Assembly (NCBI RefSeq): GCF_002009425.1
Contig: NZ_CP019936.1
Location: 4,699,297 to 4,763,296 of the forward strand
DNA length: 64,000 bases
Origin: Thiosocius teredinicola
GTDB taxonomy: Bacteria > Pseudomonadota > Gammaproteobacteria > Chromatiales > Chromatiaceae
Direction: 5' to 3'
Shown here: positions 27,366 through 47,265 of the stretch, in pieces
How positions within the stretch are numbered: the first letter of the stretch is position 1
How the letters are laid out: the number at the start of each line of letters is the position of its first letter
The notes under the pieces: generated by a model
Told to the model about the DNA's origin: nothing
The model's database searches: none
The model's input: the letters and a program-made list of their open reading frames with translations, nothing else
Position numbers and translations under genes: made by a program

Positions 27366-27445
27366 GTTCCGTCCAACCGCCGTGCTAGCTTTGCGAGCTG
27401 GCGTTCGCCGTATGCGCGAACCGGATTTCCTTGGGGAGGGAAGAC

Positions 27446-29869: not shown

Positions 29870-31951
29870 TTACAGGATGAAGCCTATGAGCGCGAGAATG
29901 GTTATGGCGGCCTCACCCCACAGTTGGATCTCCAATTGCGGACCCAGGCTGGAATAGACCGTAGCCGTCGGATCACGCAGCGTATAGTCGGCCAATTCGC
30001 GAAGCGTCGTCGAATGCCCGGCGAATTCGGCAAACCTCTGTGGCTCGACATGTTCGGCCAATGACTTGTAGCGATACTCGACAAGCAGTTCGTTGCCAAC
30101 CTGCGTTATCTCACGGGAGAAGGTGAAAGCTGCATCGTCTACCGTGTCGCGTTGGCTTTCGAACTGCCAACCGTCTGGCAACTTCACGCGTACCGTGTGC
30201 TTGACTTCCACCGGGTGCACCAGCGAGAACGGCATGGTGCGCAGCGTTTCCGGCGATACGTCATCCGTGTTGTCGAGAATCGTGAACGGCGTTATCGGCA
30301 CCTCGTGCAAGCCGCTTTCGGACTGCCAGACGTCGGGCAAGCGATAGTGCTCGACCAGTTTCACACGGTTGAGCCTGGCATCATCTTCGATCGACAGATC
30401 CTGCGTTGCATCGGCGCCGCCGAACGCATTCGACGTGTACTGCCGGTATTCCTCGGCAAGCTGTGGCACGCCTTTTTCGTCTAGCTCGGCCCGCGTATCT
30501 TCGGCGTAGTAATAGTCGTAGTGGGTTTCTATCGCGAGGTCGGCGGACGGCTGCCCGGTGTGGCTGAGATCAATCCGCTCGATGACCTCGACATGGTCGT
30601 AGACCGGGCCGCTCTCGTCCATTGCAGTGAGCTGCGTGGTCGTCGGTGTCAGCGTCAGTGCATAGTTGAGTTCAGGTTGGTACAGCGTATCGATCCGCTG
30701 ACTTTGATGGAGTCGCTTGGGGTCGACCCAGTGTTGCTTGCCTTCCAGCAGGATAGTGACGATGACATCGTCGAAGGCCTGGAGGGAGGGCAGTGCGTCG
30801 GGCAGGGTCTTGCCGCGTTCCGTATGCACCATCGCTGGATATGCTTCGATGTCGAGGCTGCGCAGCAGTGAGACCAGCAACACAGCCTTATCTCGACGGC
30901 TCGCAACGCCTTTTTCCAGTATCGCGTTAGGTGTCAGCGGCGAAGCCGGTAGCGGCGCCAACGGCTGTTCATCATTGGCAATCTGCTGCTGTACATAGGT
31001 GACCGCAGCGCTGGCCTGGTCCAGCGGCGTCGCAGCAGGTTTGCGAATCTGTTCGATCAATGCGGCAAGCTGTTCACCGGAAGCGCTGTCAGTACGAAAC
31101 ATGGGTTCGAAGGCGCCGGCCACCCCGGCCCAGGTCAGTTCATCGCCAACGGTCACCGAGGGATAGGGGTCGTACCAGCCCGGTGCGTCTTCTTCTATTG
31201 TGACCGGCACGGTGTTCAAGGCAGTCCAGGTGCAGTCCTTGACGGCCTTGTGTTGTACGCAATTGGGCGAAATATCGGTGTTGTGCTGACGCATGCCGAG
31301 GCTGCGCACGTTCGGCCAGAGCAAACGGTAGAAGACATTGGCGACCGGTTCTTCGAATTTAAACGCGAGTTTTTCGGAGAATCTGCCAGCGTAGACGGGA
31401 TGCTCAGATACCACGCTATAGCTGTACTCGACGACGTCGCCAACGCGTACGTCGTCGAGTTGGATTCGCAATGTAGAGGGTGAAGCGCCTTCGGCGGGCT
31501 CAATGTGCGTATTCCCCAGCGCACTGGCAGTCTGGTAGACAATCTCGCCGTCGCGATGAATGACCAAACGGTGAACCTTGGCTGTTTCGAACTCGGGATG
31601 GAAGGGCACGGCAATCGTCGAAATGGCTTCAATACCATCCAGGCTGAGCAATCGCTTGGCATCGTGTGTGAACGCGATGTGGCCGCGATCCGTCACCCGC
31701 CATTGGCGATCGAGCAACAGGTGCTCGACGCCACCTTCGTGCAGCGCCGAAGGCAGCTCGTCAGAGTTCGGAAGCGTAAAAGGAACGTCACTCGCCCACG
31801 TCGGAGTCGCTGCGGCAACATCGGCAAGGGCAGCTTTTGGCATCAACGCCAACGCAAACCATGCGAGACTGCCGACCAGGACAGCGGCTATTCGCCGACG
31901 CAACCCAGATGTGAAAGTAGAGGAAGGGGAAACGAAGCGGGGCTGTTCCAT
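29870..31951 (-). CDS. DUF3857 / transglutaminase-like protein lacking catalytic residues
   Basis: A 693-residue exported protein with a signal peptide (RRIAAVLVGSLAWFALALMP, cleavage near ALAD) and a C-terminal membrane helix (ITILALIGFIL). The N-terminal half is DUF3857 (HRLVIHRDGEIVYQTASAL). The middle is a transglutaminase-core fold. Where the family has GDCKDKA this protein has ASRRDKA, and the FDHV histidine is FDDV, so Cys and His of the triad appear lost. It is therefore probably a binding protein rather than a protease. GGAG precedes the ATG. It is convergent with the cytochrome b gene. Confidence 0.82.
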   Translation of the reverse strand: MEQPRFVSPSSTFTSGLRRRIAAVLVGSLAWFALALMPKAALADVAAATPTWASDVPFTLPNSDELPSALHEGGVEHLLLDRQWRVTDRGHIAFTHDAKRLLSLDGIEAISTIAVPFHPEFETAKVHRLVIHRDGEIVYQTASALGNTHIEPAEGASPSTLRIQLDDVRVGDVVEYSYSVVSEHPVYAGRFSEKLAFKFEEPVANVFYRLLWPNVRSLGMRQHNTDISPNCVQHKAVKDCTWTALNTVPVTIEEDAPGWYDPYPSVTVGDELTWAGVAGAFEPMFRTDSASGEQLAALIEQIRKPAATPLDQASAAVTYVQQQIANDEQPLAPLPASPLTPNAILEKGVASRRDKAVLLVSLLRSLDIEAYPAMVHTERGKTLPDALPSLQAFDDVIVTILLEGKQHWVDPKRLHQSQRIDTLYQPELNYALTLTPTTTQLTAMDESGPVYDHVEVIERIDLSHTGQPSADLAIETHYDYYYAEDTRAELDEKGVPQLAEEYRQYTSNAFGGADATQDLSIEDDARLNRVKLVEHYRLPDVWQSESGLHEVPITPFTILDNTDDVSPETLRTMPFSLVHPVEVKHTVRVKLPDGWQFESQRDTVDDAAFTFSREITQVGNELLVEYRYKSLAEHVEPQRFAEFAGHSTTLRELADYTLRDPTATVYSSLGPQLEIQLWGEAAITILALIGFIL

Positions 31952-32093
31952 GCCGATGATCTCCTACTGATCCGTGCGACCTGACGAAATGAAGAACGCT
32001 CGTGCGCGCTGAACGCAGAGCGGGGTGGGATTGTGCCAGAGTTCACGCCTGGTGTTTAACCAAGATCATATCTGCGTGCACAAAGGCTGCTGT

Positions 32094-32699
32094 TCAATCT
32101 TCTTCGATCAACAGTCTGCCCATGGCGAAGAGTTTCTGTTTGTCCGCATCGCTCAGTCGGGCATACAAGGCCAGTAGTTCACGCATGTCGTCGGGCAGCG
32201 ACTCACAGTAGCCGCTCTCGGCAGGTGATTCGTCCATCGAGCCGCGGCGTTGTTGAGTAAACCTTTCGCACCGCCGCGCCAATCGGTCCGGTATCTCCTT
32301 GAATGGATTCTCACGGTGTTTTGCCAAACGCTCCGGTGTCAGTTGAATGGCGGCGAGCAGGTCCGGCAGGGCACCGCTTTGTTCGGCCTCGTCGACGATC
32401 GTGATCAGATTGCGATGCCGCGTAGCCTGCAGCGAAGACGCCCGCGGCGAACCCACCCCGTAGGTGACCCAACAAGGATCGGCACCGACCGCCTCGCAGA
32501 ACTGCAGGGTTTCCTCGACACCCGGCGTCGAGATACCGGTTTCGAAGTTGTTGATGCGACCGGCGCTCCAGCCGAGCCGTTCGCTCAGGGCACGGCTGTT
32601 GGTTTCCTTGGCCATGATGCGCGCCTGGCGGATGCGCTTGCCGATCTTTTCATAGACGGGATTGCGCTTTTGTTTGCTGGGGGACGCGGCTTTAGGCAT
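32094..32699 (-). CDS. XRE/CI-like helix-turn-helix regulator
   Basis: A 201-residue protein. The N-terminal HTH (IGKRIRQARIMAKETNSRALSER then LGWSAGRINNFETGISTPG) matches Cro/CI-type DNA-binding domains. There is no LexA/CI-type peptidase active site; the C-terminal half is helical and ends in LLALYARLSDADKQKLFAMG. A perfect AATCCAA-5-TTGGATT palindrome lies 28 bp before its start, which suggests autoregulation. It faces away from the tRNA array and could control the array promoter from the same intergenic region. Confidence 0.88.
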   Translation of the reverse strand: MPKAASPSKQKRNPVYEKIGKRIRQARIMAKETNSRALSERLGWSAGRINNFETGISTPGVEETLQFCEAVGADPCWVTYGVGSPRASSLQATRHRNLITIVDEAEQSGALPDLLAAIQLTPERLAKHRENPFKEIPDRLARRCERFTQQRRGSMDESPAESGYCESLPDDMRELLALYARLSDADKQKLFAMGRLLIEED

Positions 32700-32726
32700 G
32701 GGAAGTTCGAGCAGTCATATTCTCGT

Positions 32727-32745
32727 AATCCAAGTTTTTTGGATT
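32727..32745. promoter_or_regulatory. Palindrome, candidate operator of the XRE regulator
   Basis: AATCCAA and TTGGATT are separated by GTTTT. It sits between the regulator gene and the candidate rightward promoter at 32752, so one bound dimer could affect both directions. Confidence 0.5.
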
Positions 32746-32751
32746 TATAGC

Positions 32752-32779
32752 TTGCAATCTCCAAATCTTCGCATACAAT
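32752..32779 (+). promoter_or_regulatory. Candidate promoter reading toward the tRNA array
   Basis: TTGCAA at 32752-32757 and TACAAT at 32774-32779 are 16 nt apart. It reads toward the array, 600 nt away, with no ORF of good quality in between. Confidence 0.4.
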
Positions 32780-33380
32780 CACTCGCAACAGAAATTGCTG
32801 GCGAACTTGCGCCTTTGTTTATTGAGACTGACATGACTTCGTTATCACTACGCGACAACACGATGCACTGTGCAGGCATACCAAGCCTGTCGGGCAGTTT
32901 TGTGCGCGCTGCGAAGCAACGCGTCGCCGCGTGGTCGCAGGTGAGTTTCGCCTGTGATTATTCGGATGAACATGCCATTGCCATCGAGTGTTCCGACGTC
33001 GGTCGGAGCGGACGCGGTATGACATAACCTCCAAGGAACATATCCGGGAGGTTGGCTGAAAAAACAAGCACCTCCCGAGGATTTCAAAGAACCCCGGTTG
33101 GTGCATTCGAAACGCACTGCCGGGGTTCTTGCGTTTCGGACCGTTGAGAACCCTCGTGCCGCCACCAACGCGCGGCATGTAGCGATCTTTAACAAGTCGG
33201 AATGCTGAAGTGCCATTGTGAAAGCGATGGCGGGGGACGGGTACGTCGACGGAATCGATGTACCCGGCGACCGCAACGTGGGTCGCGTCTGTCGTTTGGA
33301 CTCCCCAATAAGGAATAGGCACACGGATGTGCAGCCGAAGGGATTCGGTCGGCCGGCGGCTACGTCGGCCATTCCTTTTC
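32780..33380 (+). other. Structured leader upstream of the tRNA array
   Basis: No plus-strand gene is supported. Three hairpins are visible: 33045-33077 (8 bp, CGGGAGGT), 33087-33130 (11 bp, AAGAACCCCGG, with an inner GTGC/GCAC stem) and 33238-33266 (7 bp, CGGGTAC). Between the second and third lies a boxA-like element. The arrangement recalls rRNA leaders with antitermination elements. Minus-strand frames across here look like antisense artefacts. Confidence 0.5.
33187..33195 (+). promoter_or_regulatory. boxA-like antitermination element
   Basis: CTTTAACAA is identical to the core of the gammaproteobacterial rRNA-leader boxA (TGCTCTTTAACAA). It lies 185 nt before the first tRNA and after an 11-bp hairpin. 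If real, NusB/NusE binding would let polymerase read through the highly structured array. Confidence 0.5.
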
Positions 33381-33456
33381 GCGGGTATAGCTCAGTCGGT
33401 AGAGCGCAACCATGCCAAGGTTGAGGCCACGAGTTCGAATCTCGTTTCCCGCTCCA
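33381..33456 (+). tRNA. tRNA-Gly(GCC)
   Basis: Complete cloverleaf, 76 nt with encoded CCA. Anticodon stem CAACC/GGTTG, loop ATGCCAA, T-loop TTCGAAT, discriminator T. The acceptor has a T6-T67 mismatch compared with ordinary bacterial tRNA-Gly. First tRNA of the array. Confidence 0.95.
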
Positions 33457-34345
33457 ATTCACGCCCATGGTTCATAGGGAACGACGGTGGGCGTAGGCAA
33501 TGTGGTCTGGCACAGATAAGCGGTGGCGACATCGTGAAAGGGGGGAAGCCTGCGCACCCCCACCTGCGCGATGCAGGACGGTCCAGAAAAACCTCGTCCC
33601 CACGCCATCAGTCCGGCTGGTGGTAGCGGCCACGTGATCGACGGTTCGAGTCGGCTTACCGGCCCATACAGGGGAACCGGTGTCGGCGACGGTAACAGGT
33701 GGTGCTGACCACCGTCATACCCGGTCACCAACCGTAAGGGATAAGGGGGAGTGCTTGAGTCCGAGCCTTGTCGGTAAGGGCCGAGTGCAGTTCCAGGGGC
33801 AGCGGGTGTGAAAGCACGCGGTCCTGACGAACGGTTAAGTAGCCGACAGGTGAACGACATGAGGTGTGTTGTATTTCGTTGTGCAAAACACAACGAAGCA
33901 ACCGAGACGCACACATCTCGGCAGGTTGATTGAAAGCCCGATGGCCGGGCATCACCCTTCGACGGTGAGTGCTGGTTCGATTCCAGACTGAAATGGAAAG
34001 TTGCGTCTCACGATACGGTGAAAGTGGCGTAAGCCTGAATCATCTGCGGATGAAATTCAGGGAGGCCGGCGGCCCCAAGCCAAAGGTCTTTGATGTAGCG
34101 TCGCACGGTGGCTAGCGAGCCTTTGTTGCCCGGCAGGGCAGACGGTAGATAAAACATCGAGTAGTCGTATCGCTTACAGGTATCGCCTCCTGTTGCACAA
34201 AGGCCGTCATGTCACGCGACGCGTGTGCTGCTTACGCAGGCACGGGTGGATACGCGGGAACCCTGGGCTTGGTCGCCCCGGGATAATCCGTCAAACGGCG
34301 TGATACCGGCAGCTGTAATCTCAGGCTGCTGAAAATCTTCATTAC
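33457..34345 (+). other. 889-nt structured spacer inside the tRNA array
   Basis: I find no complete tRNA and no credible ORF. Many hairpins occur: 33698-33713 (GGTGGT/ACCACC), a 9-bp TTCGTTGTG/CACAACGAA hairpin near 33875-33898, 33903-33921 (CCGAGA/TCTCGG), 34033-34061 (CCTGAAT/ATTCAGG plus CATC/GATG) and GGCTagcgAGCC near 34110. A T-arm-like unit occurs at 33765-33781 and a three-arm tRNA-like unit at 33936-33986. It may be a noncoding RNA or decayed tRNAs. Confidence 0.5.
33936..33986 (+). pseudogene. tRNA-like element with TCG anticodon arm but no acceptor stem
   Basis: D-arm GCCCG-ATGGC-CGGGC (33936-33950), anticodon arm TCACC-CTTCGAC-GGTGA (33952-33968, anticodon TCG) and T-arm CTGG-TTCGATT-CCAG (33972-33986) follow one another with tRNA spacing. 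Flanking sequences cannot pair into an acceptor stem. It is most likely a decayed tRNA-Arg or a tRNA-shaped noncoding RNA. Confidence 0.5.
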
Positions 34346-34420
34346 TGGCAGGTGCACCATCGGTAGGTGAGCGCACTGTTAATGCGCCGTATGTCGGTTC
34401 GAGTCCGACCTTGCCAGCCA
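34346..34420 (+). tRNA. tRNA-Asn(GTT)
   Basis: 75 nt with encoded CCA. Acceptor TGGCAGG/CTTGCCA (one G-T pair), D-stem CACC/GGTG, anticodon loop CTGTTAA, T-arm GTCGG-TTCGAGT-CCGAC, discriminator G. T1-A72 and G73 fit tRNA-Asn. Confidence 0.92.
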
Positions 34421-34438
34421 ATTGCAGCAAGACATCTT

Positions 34439-34525
34439 GGACGAGTTGGGCAGTGTAGTGGGCCCTCGTGACTGCAACTCACGTCTCTTTCGAGCTTGTA
34501 GGTGCAATTCCTACCTCGTCCACCA
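34439..34525 (+). tRNA. Atypical class II tRNA with GCA anticodon
   Basis: 87 nt. Perfect acceptor GGACGAG/CTCGTCC, discriminator A, CCA encoded. Anticodon stem CGTGA/TCACG with loop CTGCAAC reads Cys codons. The variable region is 14 nt with a CTC/GAG stem, and the T-loop is TGCAATT (G at 55). A true tRNA-Cys with T73 exists at 35911, so this one has a Cys anticodon in a Leu/Tyr-like body (A73, long variable arm). Charging identity is uncertain. Confidence 0.8.
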
Positions 34526-34532
34526 AATCATT

Positions 34533-34608
34533 GGGGCCATAGCTCAGTTGGCAGAGCGGTTGTTTTGCAACCAACAGGTCGGCGGTTCGACCCCGTCTGG
34601 CTCCACCA
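34533..34608 (+). tRNA. tRNA-Ala(TGC)
   Basis: 76 nt with encoded CCA. Acceptor GGGGCCA/TGGCTCC contains the G3-T70 pair that defines alanine identity. Loop TTTGCAA, T-loop TTCGACC, discriminator A. The anticodon stem has a T31-C39 mismatch. Confidence 0.93.
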
Positions 34609-34638
34609 GTTTCAACTTCTACGACAGGGGATAACGCG

Positions 34639-34812
34639 ATGCCCTCCGAATCGACAAAATTCGAGCGCGCCGTCGCAGGGATGAACATCCCCGCAGAGCG
34701 CAAATGCGGCACGCCGGAAAACGCACGTTGGTTTCTGCGTAGCGGGCTGGCGCACAACCGCGATCACGACAAGATCCTGATCGCGATCTGCCATGCCCGA
34801 CGGCTTGCCTGA
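34639..34812 (+). CDS. 57-residue ORF embedded in the tRNA array
   Basis: ATG 34639 follows AGGGG at a suitable distance and opens a frame starting MPSESTKFERAVAGMNIPAE and ending ILIAICHARRLA. The middle holds NARWFLRSGLAHNRDHDK. It is the only sense-strand frame in the array with a good ribosome-binding site, normal codon usage and a free 200-nt slot of its own. The protein is basic, with a cysteine near residue 23 and another near 51. I do not recognise it. Sandwiched between tRNA-Ala and tRNA-Glu, it would be made from the array transcript; RNA binding or tRNA processing is a guess. Confidence 0.6.
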   Translation: MPSESTKFERAVAGMNIPAERKCGTPENARWFLRSGLAHNRDHDKILIAICHARRLA

Positions 34813-34820
34813 CTTTCACC

Positions 34821-34839
34821 GTCTCATTCGTCTACTGGC
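34821..34839 (+). pseudogene. Truncated duplicate of the tRNA-Glu 5' end
   Basis: GTCTCATTCGTCTACTGGC matches the first 19 nt of tRNA-Glu at 35001 in 18 positions; then similarity stops. No downstream acceptor complement exists. It marks past duplication or recombination in the array. Confidence 0.55.
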
Positions 34840-35000
34840 CGGAGGGCCATACGGATAGTTCTATAGTGCTCAGCAGTGGCACAAACGTTGTGGCCAAGGC
34901 GTAGTTCGCAGGGAATGGCTGGCCTTATCCAATGGTTGCAACGCAGACCACGACGTATGTGCAATGGCCCTTCGGAAGCTGTTGCGCGTGCGATCGATAC

Positions 35001-35075
35001 GTCCCATTCGTCTACTGGCTAGGACACTGCTCTTTCAAGGCAGCAAAAGGGGATCGATACCCCTATGGGACACCA
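35001..35075 (+). tRNA. tRNA-Glu(TTC)
   Basis: 75 nt with encoded CCA. Acceptor GTCCCAT/ATGGGAC, anticodon stem CTGCT/GGCAG, loop CTTTCAA, discriminator A. The T-loop is ATCGATA, so the near-universal T54 is A. Confidence 0.92.
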
Positions 35076-35081
35076 ATCAAT

Positions 35082-35156
35082 GCACCGGTTGCGCAACGGC
35101 AGCGCAGCGGATTCCAAACCCGCAGGTTGGGGGTTCAAATCCCTCCCGGTGTGCCA
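35082..35156 (+). tRNA. tRNA-Trp(CCA)
   Basis: 75 nt with encoded CCA. Acceptor GCACCGG/CCGGTGT (G1-T72), D-stem GCGC/GCGC, loop TTCCAAA, T-arm GGGGG-TTCAAAT-CCCTC, discriminator G as expected for Trp. A31-C39 mismatch in the anticodon stem. Confidence 0.92.
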
Positions 35157-35168
35157 AGCAACAAGCGA

Positions 35169-35264
35169 GTGCCGGTAGGTGTGGCCGTGGCGGAATGGTA
35201 GACGCCCCGGAATGTGGCTCCGGATGCTGTGGGTTCGAGTCCCACCGGTCACCCCTACCGGTAC
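35169..35264 (+). repeat. Inverted repeat flanking tRNA-His
   Basis: The arm GTGCCGGTAGG (35169-35179) pairs with CCCTACCGGTAC (35254-35264) with one G-T wobble. It encloses exactly the 73-nt tRNA-His plus the -1 base, so the precursor would be one long helix ending in the cloverleaf. Confidence 0.8.
35181..35253 (+). tRNA. tRNA-His(GTG) inside an extended inverted repeat
   Basis: Acceptor GTGGCCG/CGGTCAC, anticodon stem CCGGA/TCCGG, loop ATGTGGC, T-arm GTGGG-TTCGAGT-CCCAC, C73 as in His. There is no encoded CCA and the -1 base is T, not the usual G. Outside the tRNA, 35168-35179 and 35254-35265 pair over about 12 bp, extending the acceptor helix across a T/C73 mismatch. Confidence 0.9.
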
Positions 35265-35279
35265 TTGCAAACAATCAAT

Positions 35280-35352
35280 GGATGGGTAGCTCAATCGGTA
35301 GAGCGCCGGCGTGAAGCACCGGAGGCCGCAGGGTCGGTACCTGCCCCGTCCA
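35280..35352 (+). tRNA. tRNA-Phe(GAA) with altered T-loop
   Basis: Acceptor GGATGGG/CCCGTCC, D-stem GCTC/GAGC, anticodon stem CCGGC/ACCGG with loop GTGAAGC, discriminator A. The T-arm is GCAGG-GTCGGTA-CCTGC: G54 and G58 replace T54 and A58. CCA is not encoded (the genome reads CAA). Confidence 0.85.
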
Positions 35353-35360
35353 CAAGTCAT

Positions 35361-35439
35361 GTCCTTGTCGCCAAATGGATTGAAGGCACCCGGCTTCGAA
35401 CCGGGAGAACTGGGAGTTCGAGTCTCTCCAAGGACACCA
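35361..35439 (+). tRNA. tRNA-Arg(TCG)
   Basis: 79 nt with encoded CCA. Acceptor GTCCTTG/CAAGGAC, long AT-rich D-loop as in Arg(CCT/TCT) tRNAs, anticodon stem CCCGG/CCGGG, loop CTTCGAA, T-loop TTCGAGT, discriminator A. Confidence 0.92.
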
Positions 35440-35444
35440 AGCAA

Positions 35445-35520
35445 GCCTTCGTAGCTCAATCGGGAGAGCGCGGCCCTGTCAAGGCCGAGGTAGCCGGATC
35501 GAAACCGGTCGAGGGCGCCA
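35445..35520 (+). tRNA. tRNA-Asp(GTC)
   Basis: 76 nt with encoded CCA. Acceptor GCCTTCG/CGAGGGC, anticodon stem CGGCC/GGCCG, loop CTGTCAA, discriminator G as required for Asp. The T-loop is ATCGAAA (A54). Confidence 0.93.
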
Positions 35521-35525
35521 CTTTT

Positions 35526-35620
35526 GGCGGGTCAACTGAAGCGGCCTTCAGGCCCGATTTGAAATCGGTGCGTTTGGGTAGCCAGTCCCGAATGGGGATC
35601 GACACCTCGGCCCGCCGCCA
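35526..35620 (+). tRNA. tRNA-Ser(TGA) with 8/4 acceptor/T-stem and Sec-like D-arm
   Basis: 95 nt with encoded CCA, discriminator G. Eight acceptor pairs form (GGCGGGTC with GGCCCGCC), then linker AA. The D-stem has 6 bp and a 4-nt loop (CTGAAG-CGGC-CTTCAG). Anticodon loop TTTGAAA. Variable arm TTTGGG/CCCGAA. The T-stem has only 4 bp (GGGG/CCTC) with loop ATCGACA. The body is like selC, but the anticodon reads serine UCA. Confidence 0.88.
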
Positions 35621-35624
35621 AACA

Positions 35625-35712
35625 GGAGAGTGAACCGGACAGGGTTCGGGCGTGTTTCGAAAGCACAGCGATCGTCGCAACGATTGGGGATCGATACCTC
35701 CGCTCTCCGCCA
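35625..35712 (+). tRNA. tRNA-Ser(CGA) with 8/4 acceptor/T-stem
   Basis: 88 nt with encoded CCA, discriminator G. Acceptor GGAGAGTG/CGCTCTCC (8 bp), linker AA, D-stem of 5-6 bp (CCGGAC/GTTCGG) with a minimal loop, anticodon loop TTCGAAA, variable arm ATCGT/ACGAT, T-stem GGGG/CCTC (4 bp) and loop ATCGATA. Confidence 0.88.
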
Positions 35713-35719
35713 ACTTTTT

Positions 35720-35805
35720 AGAGGGTAATCCTGTCGGGGACAGGCAACGTCTGCTAAGCGTATGGAGCCGCAAGGCTTCCGGGTCGGTACCGGTGCCCTC
35801 TGCCA
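35720..35805 (+). tRNA. tRNA-Ser(GCT) with 8/4 acceptor/T-stem
   Basis: 86 nt with encoded CCA, discriminator G. Acceptor AGAGGGTA/TGCCCTCT (8 bp), linker AT, 6-bp D-stem CCTGTC/GACAGG with a GGG loop, anticodon loop CTGCTAA, variable arm GAGCC/GGCTT, T-stem CCGG/CCGG with loop GTCGGTA. Confidence 0.87.
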
Positions 35806-35810
35806 GTTCA

Positions 35811-35902
35811 GGAGGATTGCCCGAGCGGTCGAACGGGCCCCGTTGGAAGCGGGTGCGTCGCCAACAGGCGGCACGAAGGTTCGAATCCTTCATCCTCCAC
35901 CA
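35811..35902 (+). tRNA. tRNA-Ser(GGA), canonical 7/5 but A73
   Basis: 92 nt with encoded CCA. Acceptor GGAGGAT/ATCCTCC, D-stem CCCG/GGGC, loop TTGGAAG, long variable arm GTCGCC/GGCGGC, T-arm GAAGG-TTCGAAT-CCTTC. The discriminator is A where bacterial tRNA-Ser normally has G. Confidence 0.9.
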
Positions 35903-35910
35903 GGTTTGAT

Positions 35911-35988
35911 GTGAACGTGGCCGAGTGGTCTAAGGCGCCTGGCTGCAATCCAGGTTATTCGTGAGTTCGAATCTCACCGTTCACTCCA
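35911..35988 (+). tRNA. tRNA-Cys(GCA)
   Basis: 78 nt with encoded CCA. Acceptor GTGAACG/CGTTCAC, anticodon stem CCTGG/CCAGG, loop CTGCAAT, T-arm GTGAG-TTCGAAT-CTCAC. Discriminator T is the cysteine identity element. Confidence 0.93.
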
Positions 35989-36001
35989 ACATTTTTGACA
36001 C

Positions 36002-36077
36002 GCTGCGATAGCTCAGTCGGCAGAGCGCACCCATGGTAAGGGTGAGGTCGGCAGTTCAATCCTGTCTCGCAGCTCCA
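36002..36077 (+). tRNA. tRNA-Thr(GGT)
   Basis: 76 nt with encoded CCA. Acceptor GCTGCGA/TCGCAGC, anticodon stem CACCC/GGGTG, loop ATGGTAA, T-loop TTCAATC, discriminator T. Confidence 0.94.
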
Positions 36078-36095
36078 GTTAGTCAGCAGATAACT

Positions 36096-36172
36096 CGCTT
36101 TGTAGCTCAGCCCGGTAGAGCGCGCGGCCGATAACCGCGGGGTCGATGGTTCGAATCCATCCGAAGCGACCA
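36096..36172 (+). tRNA. tRNA-Ile(GAT) with C33
   Basis: 77 nt with encoded CCA. Acceptor CGCTTTG/CGAAGCG, anticodon stem CGCGG/CCGCG. The loop CCGATAA carries C at position 33, where T is nearly invariant. T-arm GATGG-TTCGAAT-CCATC, discriminator A. Confidence 0.9.
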
Positions 36173-36181
36173 GTTCTTCTT

Positions 36182-36280
36182 TGACGGTTAGCTCAGCTGG
36201 TAGAGCACTTCGCCTATCTACGCTCCTCGCGCAGCGTGGCAAAGCAGATGTCATCCGTTCGAACCGGATACCGTCAACCA
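36182..36280 (+). tRNA. tRNA of unassigned identity with enlarged anticodon region
   Basis: Acceptor TGACGGT/ACCGTCA, D-stem GCTC/GAGC and T-arm ATCCG-TTCGAAC-CGGAT are all perfect, with A73 and encoded CCA. Between base 26 and the T-stem there are 45 nt instead of about 22. They can fold as CTTCGCC/GGCAAAG (one mismatch) enclosing ACGCT/AGCGT with an 8-nt loop. An insertion, intron or decay product is possible; no anticodon can be assigned safely. Confidence 0.65.
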
Positions 36281-36289
36281 ATCATCACT

Positions 36290-36366
36290 CCCCAGGTGAT
36301 GGAACCGGCATACATGCCTGCCTCAAACACAGGATCCTGCGAGTTCGAATCTCGCCCTGGGGACCA
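36290..36366 (+). tRNA. tRNA with CAA (Leu) anticodon but short variable loop
   Basis: 77 nt with encoded CCA. Acceptor CCCCAGG/CCTGGGG, short D-stem ATG/CAT, anticodon stem CCTGC/ACAGG with loop CTCAAAC, T-arm GCGAG-TTCGAAT-CTCGC, A73. The variable region is only ATCCT, so it is class I although bacterial leucine tRNAs are class II. Confidence 0.85.
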
Positions 36367-36382
36367 ATGCTTTCTTCTGTTT

Positions 36383-36470
36383 AGGGACGTGGCGGAATGG
36401 TCTACGCGCCGGGTTTAAACCCTGGTTGAGCACACGCTCTATGCCCGTTCGACTCGGGCCGTCCCTACCA
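36383..36470 (+). tRNA. tRNA-Leu(TAA)
   Basis: 88 nt with encoded CCA. Acceptor AGGGACG/CGTCCCT, anticodon stem CCGGG/CCTGG, loop TTTAAAC, variable arm GAGC/GCTC, T-arm GCCCG-TTCGACT-CGGGC, A73. Confidence 0.94.
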
Positions 36471-36483
36471 CTTCTGTTTTCAG

Positions 36484-36573
36484 GCCGCTCTGGTGGAACT
36501 GGCATACACGCTGGTCTCAGGAATCAGTTGGGCGAGAGCCCTGTTCCGAGTTCGAATCTCGGGGGCGGCACCA
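36484..36573 (+). tRNA. tRNA-Leu(CAG)
   Basis: 90 nt with encoded CCA. Acceptor GCCGCTC/GGGCGGC, loop CTCAGGA, variable arm GGGC/GCCC, T-arm CCGAG-TTCGAAT-CTCGG, A73. Confidence 0.95.
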
Positions 36574-36579
36574 ACAAAA

Positions 36580-36611
36580 GGCGATGCGCCGCATTCTGTT
36601 CAAGCATCGCC
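36580..36611 (+). other. 8-bp hairpin between leucine tRNAs
   Basis: GGCGATGC (36580-36587) pairs with GCATCGCC (36604-36611) around a 16-nt loop. No T-run follows, so it may be a processing site or attenuator rather than a terminator. Confidence 0.5.
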
Positions 36612-36621
36612 GAACATCTTT

Positions 36622-36710
36622 ACGTAGGTGGTGGAATCGGTATACACGTCAGCTTGAGGAGCTGGCGAGCCGCAAGGCTCACGCGGGTTCGAGCCCCGCC
36701 CTACGTACCA
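36622..36710 (+). tRNA. tRNA-Leu(GAG)
   Basis: 89 nt with encoded CCA. Acceptor ACGTAGG/CCTACGT, anticodon stem TCAGC/GCTGG, loop TTGAGGA, variable arm GAGCC/GGCTC, T-arm GCGGG-TTCGAGC-CCCGC, A73. Confidence 0.95.
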
Positions 36711-36715
36711 ATCGC

Positions 36716-36802
36716 GCCGGGTTCGCATAGTCGGTCGATTGCACCTGACTTGTAATCAGGAGGGTGAAACCCACGTGAGTTCGAATCTCACACCCGGCTC
36801 CA
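36716..36802 (+). tRNA. tRNA-Thr(TGT) with long variable arm
   Basis: 87 nt with encoded CCA. Acceptor GCCGGGT/ACCCGGC, anticodon stem CCTGA/TCAGG, loop CTTGTAA, T-arm GTGAG-TTCGAAT-CTCAC, T73. The 14-nt variable region forms GGGT/ACCC. Threonine tRNAs are normally class I, so this body shape is unexpected. Last tRNA of the array. Confidence 0.88.
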
Positions 36803-36873
36803 GCAACGTTCAGCATTCCGACTCGTTCGACTATACGAAACAACGACCTCCACAACACAGGAGTAGCGCCGAC

Positions 36874-37452
36874 ATGGACGGCTGCCAGACCCCGGCGAAA
36901 GTGCTGGCCTTGGATATCGCAGGCAATCCGAACGCATGGATCGACATCGAGCGTGCCGTGCACCTGATTACAACCGATCGGGTGCTCGCACTGCTGGGTG
37001 AAAATACCCGCCTGTTGTTCGGTGGCGTCAACGCACGCACCGGTCAACGTTCGCAGGTCGAGATCTCGAGCATCCTGTTGACGCGGATGCACGTGCAACC
37101 ACGCCTTTGGAGCAAGCAATACCAGCCGCCGCTGACCAACCGTGCGTTGTTCGCCCGCGATCGACATCTCTGCCAGTACTGCGGCAACGCGTTCGCAACG
37201 CAGAAGCTGACGCGAGATCACATCGTGCCGACAAGTCGCGGCGGTCTTGATACGTGGTCGAACACAACGACAGCTTGTGCGGTATGTAATGCAGCTAAAG
37301 GCGCTCGTACGCCGGAGGAATGGGGCGTGCAGTTGATCGCCGTGCCGTATGCGCCGTGCTATGCGGAGCATCTGCTGTTGAAAGGAAGGAATATCCTGGC
37401 TGACCAGGCCGCCTTTCTTCAGGCGCGCGTGCGGCGGGCGAAAGTGAACTGA
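36874..37452 (+). CDS. HNH endonuclease
   Basis: A 192-residue protein starting at ATG 36874 (AGGAG upstream). It has the N-terminal element VLALDIAGNPNAWIDIERAV and a C-terminal HNH domain: ALFARDRHLCQYCGN (CxxC), LTRDHIVPTSRGG and CAVCNAAKG (CxxC). The DHI histidine and zinc cysteines are intact, so nuclease activity is likely. Related proteins are scattered widely in gammaproteobacteria. It follows the array by 71 nt on the same strand and may be on the array transcript. A homing or defence role is possible. Confidence 0.88.
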   Translation: MDGCQTPAKVLALDIAGNPNAWIDIERAVHLITTDRVLALLGENTRLLFGGVNARTGQRSQVEISSILLTRMHVQPRLWSKQYQPPLTNRALFARDRHLCQYCGNAFATQKLTRDHIVPTSRGGLDTWSNTTTACAVCNAAKGARTPEEWGVQLIAVPYAPCYAEHLLLKGRNILADQAAFLQARVRRAKVN

Positions 37453-37496
37453 AGCCGAGATAGGCACTCGGTTCCTGACAACTGTTCAGGATGCGA

Positions 37497-37540
37497 GCGG
37501 CAGTCGGGTTCTTCAAAGAGAGCCCCTCTGCCGCTTCTTT
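37497..37540 (+). terminator. Terminator after the HNH gene
   Basis: GCGGCAG (37497-37503) pairs with CTGCCGC (37528-37534), with inner GGG/CCC pairs, followed by TTCTTT. It would end the array-HNH transcript. Confidence 0.7.
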
Positions 37541-37665
37541 GTTGATCTGTGAAAAAGATCGGTGGAATCAAGGGAAGCGGGTTCTCAGGTCTGCCTATTG
37601 TCGGTCTAGCGGGCGGCGCATCTGCCGATAAAACTTCCTAGTTGTAACCGATAGTTCCATAACCG

Positions 37666-38298
37666 ATGTCGAGCGGTTCATACGAGCTGGCTGCCGAGGC
37701 CTATGCGCTGATCATGCATGATGATCTCGCCGCACTCGAACGCCTGTTGAGCAACATTGAAGACGTAAATGCACTCAGCGAGCGGGGCCGCTCGCTGTTG
37801 GCGTGGGCGTGCTATTTCAATCGCCAATCGGTCATCGATTGGTTGCTGCAACATGGCGCTGACCCGAACCACCGCGACGACGAAGACTGGACCCCGCTCA
37901 AACACGCAATTCATCACGATGACGCAGGCTTGATCAAAAAGCTGGTCGCACATGGTGCAGATCCGCACGTTCGATGCCGTGCCGGGCACAACCTGTTATG
38001 GAGCGCCTGGGTCAATGAGCGAGAAATCGCGTTCCGAACCCTTGCTCGACTCGGGCTGCGCCCGCGCCGATCCGGCGTACCAAGAGCCGACTACAAGTAT
38101 CTCTTGAATGGCGGGACGATGAAGGGGCGCATGCGACCGCTTACCTCACCGCCGATTCCGCTCTACGCGCCCATCGGCGTGCGCGACTATGCCGGTGTCG
38201 CCCATGCATTTGCGGCGCACCTGCTGCTCAACCGTCTGTTCAAGATAGCGCCGTTGCCGAACGCAATCGCACGCCTGTTGGCAAAACCGGCCCGCTGA
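37666..38298 (+). CDS. Ankyrin-repeat protein
   Basis: A 210-residue soluble protein with three ankyrin repeats in its first 130 residues: SLLAWACYFNRQSVIDWLLQ, TPLKHAIHHDDAGLIKKLVA and NLLWSAWVNEREIAFRTLAR. Each is preceded by the typical GADPN or GADPH turn. No enzymatic domain is visible, and the C-terminal part is helical and basic. Ankyrin repeats bind proteins; the partner is unknown. Composition does not differ strikingly from neighbours. Confidence 0.85.
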   Translation: MSSGSYELAAEAYALIMHDDLAALERLLSNIEDVNALSERGRSLLAWACYFNRQSVIDWLLQHGADPNHRDDEDWTPLKHAIHHDDAGLIKKLVAHGADPHVRCRAGHNLLWSAWVNEREIAFRTLARLGLRPRRSGVPRADYKYLLNGGTMKGRMRPLTSPPIPLYAPIGVRDYAGVAHAFAAHLLLNRLFKIAPLPNAIARLLAKPAR

Positions 38299-38334
38299 CA
38301 AAACACCGTAACTAGCCGGCCCGATGCAAGAGAG

Positions 38335-40635
38335 TCAGCCTTTGCGCGCTTTGGCAAAGGCCGCGGCAAGTGCGCCCTGCGGTGCCGGCTGTGAACTATG
38401 CTGCCTCCGTTTCTGGTCTGCACGCTCACGCTGTGGGCGAGGCGAACGTTCAGTTTGCCCCTTGCCGGCTTCATCGCTCATCCGCATCGACAAGCCGATA
38501 CGTTTGCGCTGCAGATCAACGTCCATGACCTTTACCTTGACCACATCGCCCGCCTTGACCACTTCACGCGGGTCTTTAATGAACTTGTCACTCATCGCCG
38601 AGATATGCACCAAGCCATCCTGATGTACGCCGATATCGACGAAAGCCCCAAAGTTAGTGACGTTGGTGATGACACCTTCGAGCACCATGTTGGGTTTGAG
38701 ATCAGACAGTGTTTCAACACCATCCTGGAACTCGGCCGTCTTGAATTCCGGTCGCGGGTCACGACCGGGCTTTTCGAGTTCCGCAACAATGTCCTGCACG
38801 GTGGGAGCACCGAAAGTGTCATCGGTGTAGTCCGTGACGGTCAAACGGCGAAGAAAGGCACCGTCGCCGATCACCTGGGCGATGTTGCGATCATTCTTTT
38901 TCAGGATGCGTTCAACAACGGGATACGCCTCGGGATGCACAGCGGAGGCATCCAGGGGGTTGCTGCCGTCCATTACGCGCAAAAAGCCGGCAGCCTGTTC
39001 AAACGTTTTGTCGCCTAGGCGCGGCACCTTTTTCAGTTGCTGACGGTCGGCAAACGCCCCGTTCTGATCGCGAAACTGCACAATGTTGTCCGCCACGATG
39101 CTCGAAAGACCTGCGACACGGGTGAGCAGTGCAGGGGATGCGGTATTCACATCGACGCCTACGGCGTTCACACAGTCTTCGACCACGTTATCGAGGCTGC
39201 GCGCCAGTTGAGTCTGACTCACATCGTGCTGATACTGGCCCACACCAATCGACTTCGGATCGATCTTTACCAGCTCTGCCAACGGATCTTGTAGACGACG
39301 TGCGATCGATACCGCACCGCGCAAAGATACATCGAGATCGGGCAGTTCGTTCGATGCCAGCTCGGACGCCGAGTAAACGGACGCGCCGGCCTCGCTGACC
39401 ATGATCTTGTTGAGCTTGAGTTCCGGATGCTTCTTGATCAACTCGGCTGCCAGGCGATCGGTTTCCCGAGAGGCTGTGCCATTGCCGATCGCGACCAGTT
39501 GAACCTTGTGTGTCGCCGCCAGTTTCGCAAGCGTTGCCAGCGATTGGTCCCATTGCTTTTTCGGCGGATGCGGATAGATGGTATCGGTTGCTACGACCTT
39601 GCCGGTGTTGTCGACAATAGCGACCTTTACACCTGTGCGAAGACCAGGGTCGAGGCCGAGCGTGGCACGCGGGCCGGCCGGAGCGGCCAGCAGTAGATCA
39701 TGAAGGTTGGCGGCGAACACCTTGATGGCCTCGCCTTCGGCTGCTTCACGCAAGCGGGTTTTCAATTCCAGGTCGAGTCGGGTCAGCAGTTTGACCCGCC
39801 ATGTCATTCGGACCGAGTCGCGCAACCAGGCATCGGCCGCGCGACCTTCATCGCGAATGGCGAAACGCGCGGCAATCATCCGTTCGGGTTGAGTGCGGCC
39901 GTTCTCGTCTTCATCGATATCGAAATCGAGAAACACGATGCCTTCGTTGCGTGCCCGAAACAGCGCCAGCGCGCGATGCGACGGGATGGCCCGGATCGGC
40001 TGGCTGAAATCGAAATAGTCAGCGAACTTCGCCCCTTCCTGTTCCTTGCCGGCGATGACTGCGCTCTTGAGCTTGGCGTTGTCCCACAGCCATTCGCGCA
40101 CGTTGCCGCTCAGCTCCGCATCCTCGGCCCAATTCTCCATCAGGATCTGGCGCGCACCGTCGAGTACCGCTTTGATGTCTGCAAAACCGGCTTCTTCGTT
40201 GAGGTAGTCAGCCGCGAGAGTTTCCGGATCTTGCGTCGGATCCTCAAGAATGGCCTCAACCAGCGGAGCAATACCGGCTTCACGCGCAATCTGTGCCTTG
40301 GTGCGGCGTTTCGGCTTGTACGGCAAATAGATATCTTCGAGGCGCGTCTTGGTGTCGGCCGACAGGATCTCTTTTTCAAGCTCGGGGGTCAGCTTGCCTT
40401 GTTCATCGACGGACTTCAGAACCGTTGCACGCCGTTCTTCCAATTCACGCAGGTAACCCAATCGCTCTTCCAATGTCCGCAGCTGCGCATCATCGAGACC
40501 ACCGGTTACTTCCTTACGATATCGCGCGATAAACGGCACGGTTGCGCCACCATCGATTAGGTCGATTGCCGACTCCACCTGCCGGGTGTTTACAGCGATC
40601 TCATTGGCAATTCGTTCAGCGATGGATGGCAGCAC
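38335..40635 (-). CDS. tex: Tex-family RNA-binding transcription accessory protein
   Basis: A 766-residue cytoplasmic protein. It has the N-terminal Tex helical part, including [17 protein letters not shown] and [17 protein letters not shown]. Next comes a YqgF-like RNase H fold ([18 protein letters not shown]), helix-hairpin-helix repeats and a C-terminal S1 domain ([20 protein letters not shown] to [16 protein letters not shown]). Length is normal for the family. Tex affects transcription and RNA turnover. It is transcribed alone, convergent with the ankyrin gene. Confidence 0.96.
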
Positions 40636-40785: not shown

Positions 40786-41601
40786 TCAGCCAAAGTACTC
40801 CACAGCCCAGGTCACCGGCAGCGCAATGGTTCGGGCGAGGACATCGGATACCTGCTGCTGGAAGCGATTCCAACGCGTGCCGGCAGTCTCCATCGGCTCA
40901 CCTAGCAGATCGGGGTCGCAACGCATCTGTGTCCAGCCCTTGTAGTTCTCTACTGGCGGAACTTCCGTTGGAAGATTCTGCCACTCGGGATAGTCGCGAT
41001 GCACTTTGTTTGGCAATACGTTTACAGGATCGATCACACCCATTCCCCAACGATCGTTGTCTGCAGGGTTGGATGTCATGAAGAGGCGGCCGTCTTGAAC
41101 TTCGATAAAAGCCTGCCTGCCTGCCACGGTGATCCGCGTGATTTCGCGCGCCCAGGGCCGAGTGCCGATCCACCGGGCATCGTTGAAGGTCCTGCCCTGA
41201 TCCTTCGAAACGAGAAAGCCTGACGCGTCAGAATAGGGCAAGAAAACGAAATCACCGTCGTCATCCGCGTGAACAATATCAGGCAGGAAAACTCTAGCGA
41301 ACTGATCGATGTATGCAGTCCGAACACCATGCTTTTCATCTGCGTAATAGATTGCGCCTTCGCAACCGTATCCTGTCAGTTCCAGGTGTCGATGGTCGTC
41401 GAAGCGATATATCACCTGTGTAGCAGGCTTATTTCGGGACGACGATTGCCCGGCAGGTAGAATAGGGACGATAGCAGCAACTGCTAAGAGAATTCCCAAA
41501 GCCGCCAGCGCCTTTTTCTGCGTCCGAATCGAAACCAATAATGCGATTGAGGAGAAAAGAAGCGTCCATATTGAAACAATCCAGACTTCTGCTGTTTCCA
41601 T
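40786..41601 (-). CDS. Tli3-like T6SS immunity protein, membrane-anchored
   Basis: About 271 residues starting METAEVWIVSIWTLLFSSIA, with one or two N-terminal hydrophobic helices and a periplasmic domain of beta-propeller character (GFLVSKDQGRTFNDARWIG, AFIEVQDGRLFMTS). It resembles Tli3-family immunity proteins, which neutralise Tle3 lipases. I choose the start at 41601, 11 nt after the effector stop, because GAGAG precedes it. Its position directly behind the effector gene is the main support; specific residues of Tli3 were not checked. Confidence 0.75.
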   Translation of the reverse strand: METAEVWIVSIWTLLFSSIALLVSIRTQKKALAALGILLAVAAIVPILPAGQSSSRNKPATQVIYRFDDHRHLELTGYGCEGAIYYADEKHGVRTAYIDQFARVFLPDIVHADDDGDFVFLPYSDASGFLVSKDQGRTFNDARWIGTRPWAREITRITVAGRQAFIEVQDGRLFMTSNPADNDRWGMGVIDPVNVLPNKVHRDYPEWQNLPTEVPPVENYKGWTQMRCDPDLLGEPMETAGTRWNRFQQQVSDVLARTIALPVTWAVEYFG

Positions 41602-41611
41602 GCATAATCTC

Positions 41612-43777: not shown

Positions 43778-43797
43778 GCGTTTTCTCTTGGGGGGGT

Positions 43798-46800: not shown

Positions 46801-47265
46801 GTCGTTTCTCTTTCCTTGATTACGAAGCAGCCGCAGTTCCAAGCGGCCGAGCAAGTCTTCGTTGCGTGCGACGATTTTCGCATAGCGACCCTTGGCCGAT
46901 CACGCCGCCGGGTGTAGTTGGCGAGTTAGATTCGCGTTACACAGAAAGCAGTTACTAAACCGGCAATGGGCGGATGCACAATGCGTCAGTGGTCGACGCT
47001 CGCGCTGTTGGCGCTGATCGGCACGCTGACTGGCAGCCAAGCGTTGAATCTCTTTTGTGCGTCTCTTCGTAGATATCGGTAAGCATTGCCGTGCACGGTC
47101 GTTCAGCCTGCGATACATCGGGTGATGTCAGCGATAGGCTAGATGCACGATACAGGTCGCCGTACGGGTAGTATTGGACTATGCGGTGAGACTGGTCGAA
47201 CCTGCGATGGGCAATGCGAAACAGTCGAGCGACAACCTACTTTGGGATCGGGTGCTATCCATCAA
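46801..47265. other. Intergenic region between VgrG and GNAT genes
   Basis: No convincing gene. Short frames on both strands lack ribosome-binding sites. It contains the divergent promoters of vgrG (left) and the GNAT gene (right), but I see no clear -35/-10 pair. Confidence 0.35.

Follow-up and report, generated by a model that had tools for sequence, protein, structure and literature searches.

Arrays of clustered tRNA genes have been described in Mycobacterium, Anabaena and Acidithiobacillus, and here we describe one from Thiosocius teredinicola, located at positions 33381–36802 of a chromosomal stretch of 64,000 nucleotides, which in its whole length is called the window and to which the coordinates below refer. 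It comprises 23 tRNA loci and a GOLLD RNA, and is flanked by a leader region with a divergent XRE-type regulator gene on one side and an HNH endonuclease gene on the other. About 81% of the Mycobacterium arrays contain a structured RNA of ~430 nt, and the G2 arrays have an XRE regulator and HNH genes in about 87% (PMC5966550). A cluster of 32 tRNA genes in one species contains HNH and a GOLLD RNA with a pseudo tRNA inside it (PMC6582537). The window unit shares with these arrays the dense set of at least 20 tRNA genes, the structured RNA or GOLLD, the XRE regulator and the HNH gene, but its host is not a Mycobacterium and no mobile-element gene was found around the array. A divergent regulator with an operator, a leader open reading frame (ORF), an attenuator, a boxA and a linkage to RtcB were not found described for Mycobacterium arrays in the accessible text of these two papers.

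In Anabaena, an operon of 26 tRNA genes (trn) is repressed by TrcR, deletion of which raises rtcB, slipin and HNH genes, and the repression is relieved by chloramphenicol, spectinomycin and streptomycin (PMC10272220). The likeness lies in the long accessory tRNA operon, there controlled by a repressor and induced by stress, with rtcB, slipin and HNH in the regulon. TrcR is, however, a ribbon-helix-helix protein acting in trans on scattered genes, whereas the window regulator is adjacent to the array, of the HTH_19/XRE type and unrelated, and is thus not a member of the TrcR type; by analogy it may nevertheless work like TrcR. No mention of GOLLD was found for the trn operon in the accessible text (PMC10272220). 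The RtcR-controlled Rtc RNA repair operons (PMC7790460) have in common with the present system the RNA ligase RtcB and, on the reading proposed below, a response to damaged tRNAs, but here the regulator is of the XRE type, accessory tRNA genes and Band_7 proteins are present, and the window unit, having no rtcB in its operon, is not an Rtc repair operon. In Acidithiobacillus, 26 extra tRNA genes are likewise clustered in a proteobacterial chromosome, but within a region of ~300 kb that is an integrative and conjugative element (ICE) or island, and GOLLD and RtcB are absent from the accessible text (PMC5468388).

GOLLD together with RtcB was not found in the literature searched, and RtcB together with "tRNA array" was found there only for Anabaena (PMC10272220). 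The parts of the unit thus appear to be known, and the regulator, leader and RNA-repair linkage were not found described in the literature searched, though work on RNA damage and repair may discuss such operons. The unit is probably a stress-responsive emergency translation kit, that is, a repressed and attenuator-gated operon of replacement tRNAs and GOLLD.

The regulator family and the control region

A profile search with the regulator gave 37 matches, among them the three seed units, and these come from 35 of the 210 genomes searched in the same bacterial family. Thirty-six loci were examined, G186:C223 being omitted as it is cut by a contig end, and 34 of them could be assessed, two having no downstream room. 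A divergent tRNA gene is located within 1.4 kb of the regulator start in 24 of the 34 loci, and in one more (L275) at 3.1 kb. An RtcB homologue is present in 27, confirmed by Pfam in L105 and L277 (as is Band_7 in L277, L279 and L281) and otherwise assigned by tblastn, and 33 of the 34 loci show at least one of the two in these ranges. With the seeds excluded the counts are 21/31 for the divergent tRNA and 26/31 for RtcB. The adjacent tRNAs vary (Ile, Met, Gln, Leu, Lys, Tyr, Arg, Ser and others). T. teredinicola itself has a second regulator locus (L276, C1:1748001-1756000) with tRNA-Arg(GCG), tRNA-Val(TAC) and homologues of Band_7 and RtcB. Among 369 genomes across the class, regulator matches were found in five, two of these in the same family. 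The three loci outside it represent three families, and each has divergent tRNAs, namely six with an HNH gene, nine at a contig end, and one for Lys with Band_7 and RtcB. A rough background for these counts is given by 25 other HNH loci of the bacterial family, none of which has a tRNA within about 1.5 kb on either side.

In L273, L274 and L275 the regulator gene, an HNH gene and genes for a protein of ~320–330 residues and an ArfB-like protein with an RF-1 domain stand in a row. The ~320–330-residue protein has no Pfam or NCBIfam match (L273 and L275 scanned), and is met again next to RtcB at further loci of the regulator family.

Five regulator loci constitute array-type units, namely the window, L104, L105, L271 and L272, which come from five genera of one bacterial family. 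The control region of the window contains the following features.

32094..32699, minus strand: XRE-type (HTH_19) regulator of 201 residues, divergent from the array, 55–56% identical to those of L104 and L105
32729..32743, no strand: operator candidate, palindrome TCCAA-N5-TTGGA, from sequence conservation
32752..32779, plus strand: promoter candidate TTGCAA-N16-TACAAT with a TCCAA half-site in the spacer, by eye
32833..33027, plus strand: leader ORF of 64 codons, its stop codon overlapping attenuator segment 1
33026..33129, plus strand: attenuator-like leader, from aligned leaders
33026–33032, 33046–33053 and 33069–33077, plus strand: attenuator segments 1, 2 and 3
33090–33129, plus strand: terminator-like hairpin and T-rich end
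33186..33195, plus strand: boxA-like TCTTTAACAA, by motif match
33191..33209, plus strand: 5' arm of a long-range stem, 18 of 19 nucleotides paired with 36809–36827
36809..36827, plus strand: 3' arm of this stem, just past the last tRNA gene

The palindrome TCCAA-N5-TTGGA is exact in all five array-type units and in none of the 29 other regulator loci, and by eye the other array-type units have similar promoter-like hexamer pairs. All five have a leader ORF of 60–64 codons with a related start, ending in M(T/R)-stop. Segment 2 is complementary both to segment 1 and to segment 3, and segment 3 could also pair with the 5' part of the terminator-like hairpin. A terminator pattern was matched in the leaders of 22 of the 34 regulator loci, and 13 leaders were aligned, those of the five array-type units and of eight related loci, the array and non-array rows being slightly out of register. 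RNAalifold recovered the 2:3 hairpin and the terminator, with a double change in 5 of 21 pairs, while the 3:4' pairing holds in 90 of 91 cells with a single double change, in L284. The 13 aligned leaders have the sequence features expected of a leader-peptide attenuator, namely an ORF whose end falls on segment 1, pairings that exclude one another, and an intrinsic terminator. The motif TCTTTAACAA, which we take to be a boxA, is exact in four of the five array-type leaders and in 8 of the 29 others.

The stem that brackets the array, of 19–23 nt, is found in the window and L104, where it overlaps the boxA-like segment. Between the two, pairing is kept in both for five of six varying columns (hand count). 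No such stem was detected in L105, L271 and L272, and in six plasmid arrays there was no excess over shuffles except in the partial cluster L099 (2/100). The leader was also considered as a copy of an rRNA leader, and this was rejected on 41-base searches of plasmids, which gave four weak matches for the L104 leader and none for that of the window.

The tRNA array and the GOLLD RNA

The tRNA genes were detected with ARAGORN and Infernal (RF00005), and class II Ser tRNAs were added by eye. ARAGORN gives 19 genes, all on the plus strand and spanning 33381–36802, and Infernal at the gathering score gives 16 over the whole window and 18 on a shorter stretch. With three Ser tRNAs and one interrupted locus the total is 23, of which 22 are intact, so that the 23 plus-strand genes of a preliminary description of this DNA are borne out. 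The array is not a chance assembly since it has gathering-level Infernal matches and relatives with identical gene order.

33381..33456, plus strand: tRNA-Gly(GCC), ARAGORN and Infernal
33457..34345, plus strand: GOLLD RNA gene region, 889 nt between tRNA-Gly and tRNA-Asn, Rfam RF02032 and L104 alignment
33922..33990, plus strand: degenerate tRNA-like fold in the GOLLD linker, by eye only
The lines below are all plus strand and from ARAGORN unless stated
34346..34420: tRNA-Asn(GTT)
34439..34525: tRNA-Tyr body with the Cys anticodon GCA, ARAGORN and comparison with relatives
34533..34608: tRNA-Ala(TGC)
35001..35075: tRNA-Glu(TTC), T-loop ATCGATA
35082..35156: tRNA-Trp(CCA)
35181..35255: tRNA-His(GTG), without encoded CCA
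35280..35353: tRNA-Phe(GAA), without encoded CCA
35361..35439: tRNA-Arg(TCG)
35445..35520: tRNA-Asp(GTC)
35526..35620: tRNA-Ser(TGA), class II, by eye, missed by ARAGORN
35625..35712: tRNA-Ser(CGA), class II, by eye, missed by ARAGORN
35720..35805: tRNA-Ser(GCT), class II, by eye, missed by ARAGORN
35811..35902: tRNA-Ser(GGA)
35911..35988: tRNA-Cys(GCA)
36002..36077: tRNA-Thr(GGT)
36096..36172: tRNA-Ile(GAT)
36183..36280: tRNA-Val with 23 nt inserted in the anticodon loop, Infernal and alignment to a relative
36290..36366: tRNA-Leu(CAA)
36383..36470: tRNA-Leu(TAA)
36484..36573: tRNA-Leu(CAG)
36622..36710: tRNA-Leu(GAG)
36716..36802: tRNA-Thr(TGT)

The spacing, earlier given as mostly 5–30 nt, is at most 24 nt in 19 of the 22 gaps between loci, but 889 nt follow the first tRNA gene and 392 nt separate Ala from Glu. 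With 22 genes in 3.42 kb the density is 6.4 per kb (5.6 with the 19 of ARAGORN), and the array agrees with the definition quoted in PMC5966550 of at least 20 tRNA genes at no less than 2 per kb, although the former number is reached with the three hand-added Ser tRNAs, ARAGORN alone giving 19. In these three (TGA, CGA and GCT), 1, 2 and 2 of the 17 stem pairs checked are mismatched, and each has its counterpart in a relative. The Ala-Glu gap, which is 34 nt in L104, contains an ORF of 57 codons (34640–34812), and downstream of it, at 34820, a 20-nt near copy (95%) of the start region of tRNA-Glu.

The tRNA at 34439–34525, earlier listed as a second GCA tRNA, is not a further Cys-type gene but a tRNA-Tyr in which the anticodon GUA has turned into GCA. 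It is identical to tRNA-Tyr(GTA) of L272 at 70 of 86 aligned positions, has A73, a long variable arm and the unusual T-loop TGCAATT that matches L272, occupies the Tyr slot in the gene order, and all 17 checked stem pairs are intact. A Cys family with long variable arms was rejected, as the four 87-nt Cys tRNAs of plasmids have U73 and other bodies. If charged with Tyr, this tRNA would misread Cys codons. The anticodon could also reflect a sequencing error. The locus left unassigned before, 36183–36280, aligns with the tRNA-Val(TAC) of a relative except for 23 extra nt in the anticodon loop, scores 29.6 bits in the whole-genome Infernal search and is probably a pseudogene. In L105, tRNA-Phe (about 9420–9539) has insertions of its own, separate from that of tRNA-Val.

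The T-loop lacks the initial TTC in 6 of 20 tRNAs of the window, 12 of 30 in L104 (one of them, Met, probably a register shift) and 6 of 23 in L272, versus none of 41 chromosomal tRNAs with CCA. T-loops with A54 or G54 (ATCGATA, GTCGGTA) recur in array tRNAs of the window, L104 and L272, and are reminiscent of the eukaryotic initiator tRNA.

The genome of T. teredinicola is a single contig of 4.79 Mb in which tRNAs elsewhere were identified from Infernal places. There are 42 tRNA genes with 39 anticodons outside the array, and 18 of the 21 array anticodons are represented among them. A second tRNA set is therefore present, the array does not hold the only copies for most of its anticodons, and its interpretation as accessory is supported. 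Arg-TCG, Ala-TGC and Ile-GAT had no counterpart, but this absence is not firm since the search listed only 17 array places and overlooked Thr-GGT, Leu-TAA and Leu-CAG of the array, which score 60.5, 51.1 and 45 bits in the window. Ala-TGC and Ile-GAT tRNAs usually sit in rRNA operons. No 16S rRNA was found in the assembly (stated completeness 100) with RF00177 and a 19-base pattern, and the search with the 16S family model found matches in only 9 of 14 control genomes. The preliminary statement that the array cannot be a whole set is true of the window copy, while the array of L104, in the same order, supplies every one of the six isotypes that this copy lacks (Pro, Tyr, Lys, Gln, Met and Val).

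L104 carries the unit of the window in a form that serves all 20 amino acids (27 tRNAs from ARAGORN and four Ser by eye), the order differing only in the Ser tRNAs. L105 has GOLLD, five tRNAs (Pro, Phe, Arg, Met and Cys) and HNH, followed by RlaP and RtcB, the HNH and RlaP genes overlapping in ATGA as read from the sequence. L272, with 23 tRNAs (ARAGORN) and HNH, and L271, with three tRNAs (Asp, Thr, Thr) and HNH, were found by the search for regulator and HNH and have no GOLLD. L272 holds seven of the eight L104 tRNA genes that are absent from the window (with a single Met), so that these genes are more likely to have been lost in the window than gained in L104, and by its gene content the window unit looks like a reduced copy of a 20-amino-acid unit. 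For the tRNAs that remain, 20 pairs with the same anticodon in the window and L104 were compared at 340 pairs of the acceptor, anticodon and T stems, with the interrupted Val set aside, as were His and Phe, which have no encoded CCA, and with one of the 20 being the recoded Tyr against Cys. There are 226 identical and 114 changed stem pairs, and 97 of the changed ones are paired in both, 74 by double-sided and 23 by one-sided change, with 17 unpaired in one or both.

The GOLLD match covers 33861–34327 and model positions 1–416 of RF02032, so that the consensus structure of the 3' domain is present. The score of 146.2 bits (E 1.2e-40) is 3.8 bits under the Rfam gathering score of 150, an inclusion cut-off and not a biological feature; L104 scores 157.5 and L105 109.7 bits. 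An 845-nt alignment of the window and L104, with 76% identity, also takes in the 5' part. In alignments fitted to the RF02032 model, 84 of the 98 consensus pairs are paired in both (60 identical, 13 double and 11 single changes), 3 are unpaired in one, 8 unpaired in both and 3 gapped. As the changes are compensatory, the helices of both the tRNAs and GOLLD are under selection. The L104 equivalent of the tRNA-like fold in the linker is an Infernal tRNA match of 43.6 bits. The window copy agrees with the GOLLD described in PMC12286853 in its end-to-end model match, conserved 3' motif, tRNA neighbours and tRNA-like linker element, and differs in its score and in the lack of an evident prophage around it. 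In vitro, GOLLD is reported to assemble into a 14-mer cage, and it has been recovered in pull-downs with ribosomes (PMC12286853); a role as a store for tRNAs or ribosomes would fit.

With stricter filters, by which weak matches are lost, GOLLD was found in 3 of the 210 family genomes, T. teredinicola included, in none of 92 other genomes of a nearer draw and in none of 368 others across the class. A scan of genome contigs with an exact GOLLD pattern gave one locus, in Epilithonimonas, so that an exact match is too stringent to serve as a census. No GOLLD was found in 7 plasmid array records, although that stricter-filter search gave no match anywhere, nor at E 0.001 in stretches of 4 of these records, and plasmid arrays were set aside as its carriers. 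The viral GOLLD locus L084 contains 18 tRNAs and a relative of the HNH gene, together with a tRNA of anticodon CUA that ARAGORN calls tRNA-Pyl.

The HNH gene and the genomic surroundings

36874..37452, plus strand: HNH endonuclease of 192 residues, directly downstream of the array, Pfam

The HNH protein is 61–63% identical to those of L104 and L105 and 39–46% identical to five from tRNA clusters of plasmids and phages, and its domain matches Cas9d and IscB models with scores far under their cut-offs. The HNH gene had escaped the preliminary description, as had GOLLD, the recoding of the Tyr tRNA, the leader and the regulator. The wider surroundings are chromosomal, with tex, type VI secretion system (T6SS) genes, RND efflux genes and multihaem cytochrome genes. 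The genes of T6SS VgrG, the Tle3 phospholipase effector and the Tli3 immunity protein (40786–46854) adjoin tex, and the cytochrome genes with MtrC/MtrF-like domains are at 7515–9896 and 27431–29167.

A Pfam scan of 30 window ORFs (up to 51739) detected neither integrase nor conjugation or virion genes, the phage-like domains in VgrG of the T6SS excepted. Within 31400–38400, and leaving the tRNAs aside, the array is flanked by just two repeat pairs, a direct one of 18 nt at 83% (32336/38097) and an inverted one of 14 nt (32313/38296). Each begins in the regulator gene, and they are taken as chance. With no mobile-element gene in the scanned ORFs and no convincing flanking repeats in 31400–38400, an ICE or phage context finds no support in the window. 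An empty-site comparison by way of tex failed, as full-length Tex was found in two of nine genomes of the genus with no shared DNA past tex, so that the insertion site cannot be defined. When the nucleotide sequence of the whole array was searched in plasmids and phages, none of the matches listed covered more than 6% of the query, and most took in one to three tRNAs.

Proposed function and alternative explanations

In the proposed emergency kit, the operon would consist of XRE regulator, operator-promoter, leader ORF with attenuator, boxA, tRNA-Gly, GOLLD, 22 tRNA loci and HNH. To judge from its position and the operator, the regulator should repress the operon in the off-state. In a healthy cell the leader ORF would be translated, masking segment 1, and the 2:3 hairpin and the terminator would form. 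Translation failure or tRNA cleavage would release the repressor, and when ribosomes stall or are lacking and do not reach the leader stop codon, 1:2 should pair and segment 3 invade the terminator. Transcription, assisted by boxA, might then proceed through the tRNAs and GOLLD, the latter serving as a cage, store or decoy. The array tRNAs would substitute for cut tRNAs while RtcB repairs damaged RNAs, and in T. teredinicola RtcB would be supplied by the second operon (L276) under its related regulator.

The preliminary suggestion that altered tRNAs survive anticodon nucleases or stress is plausible, and phage tRNAs have been described as escapees from anticodon nucleases (PMC10264068). The anticodon loops differ from those of the host in 15 of 18 cases, solely at positions 32, 37 and 38. 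Such changes are possible in any diverged tRNA, and the loops were rejected as a diagnostic of nuclease escape; the linkage of the regulator family to RtcB is the better backing.

Several observations weigh against the emergency kit. No RtcB homologue was found in the window operon, for which 9.3 kb downstream of the regulator were examined, and RtcB is present in one of the five array-type units. Ten of the 34 regulator loci are without a tRNA within 1.4 kb, 12 of the 34 leaders have no match to the terminator pattern, the alignment took 13 of the 22 that match, and the 3:4' pairs are nearly invariant, i.e. conserved rather than covarying. GOLLD is present in three of the five array-type units, so the arrangement can do without it, and the bracketing stem in only two; Markov shuffling equalled that of the window in 4 of 300 cases, dinucleotide shuffling in 0 of 200. 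HNH genes of this type are common, found in 123 of the 210 family genomes and mostly away from array-type units where examined, so HNH alone is no marker of the array. The window has lost or lacks eight genes of L104 (Pro, Lys, Arg-TCT, Gln, two Met, Gly-TCC and Arg-GCG), and further features that make the copy look decayed are the interrupted Val, the recoded Tyr, and Phe and His without encoded CCA.

The tRNA losses and the interrupted gene also fit the remains of a mobile element (phage, plasmid or integrative) stranded in the chromosome. The array would then have countered host tRNA nucleases in the past and now be decaying, roleless cargo, an explanation that we consider unlikely but worth serious weight. 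Seven HNH matches retrieved from the plasmid and phage collections (out of 57 and 44 records), from megaplasmids of Variovorax, Polaromonas and Methylibium and from Salicola phage SCTP-2, each adjoin at least nine tRNAs. Among the best 80 viral HNH loci, 40 of the 47 closest have tRNAs and 22 at least ten, as do 17 and 7 of the 33 weaker ones, and of 62 viral loci with the GOLLD pattern, 23 have tRNAs in the stretch retrieved. The rarity of GOLLD in the family under the stricter filters points the same way. A roleless remnant does not, however, agree with tRNA and GOLLD stems that are maintained by compensatory changes, nor with an operator, leader ORF and attenuator common to units of five genera. 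The regulator was not confirmed in any viral contig (two peptide patterns), none of the 62 viral GOLLD stretches has the regulator or RtcB (tblastn), and the scanned window ORFs are free of integrase, conjugation and virion genes, T6SS VgrG apart.

Extra decoding capacity in normal growth, as codon compensation or growth-rate dosage, would agree with the redundant anticodons, and a boxA element resembles rRNA control. It is very improbable, leaving unexplained the divergent tRNA bodies, the dedicated regulator and attenuator, the link to RNA repair, and the fact that most relatives lack GOLLD units. Hardly to be expected either is a selfish HNH homing cassette spreading along with tRNA genes: HNH is present in all five array-type units, and it is frequent in mycobacterial arrays, for which homing has been proposed (PMC6582537, PMC5966550), but 25 other HNH loci of the family all lack a tRNA within about 1.5 kb on either side, and the regulator, the attenuator, the RtcB loci without HNH and GOLLD would remain unaccounted for.

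There is about an even chance that the unit of T. teredinicola belongs to a family of translation-rescue operons, not described before, that are XRE-regulated and attenuator-gated. They would occur in this bacterial family and outside it, a single family of regulators controlling either isolated accessory tRNAs along with Band_7 and RtcB or complete sets of replacement tRNAs along with a GOLLD cage. Within this single bacterial family the units form an evolutionary series of full, reduced and minimal forms, with GOLLD present or absent. Here an accessory tRNA array and a GOLLD RNA are both under a regulator with relatives next to single tRNAs and RNA-ligase genes, and behind a conserved leader that seems capable of sensing translation. 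The question of their role becomes concrete, namely whether blocked translation or tRNA cleavage induces the operon and whether GOLLD joins the rescue. If the proposal is true, GOLLD would gain a physiological setting in tRNA loss and repair, and tRNA arrays would gain a defined trigger, the failure to translate a leader peptide.

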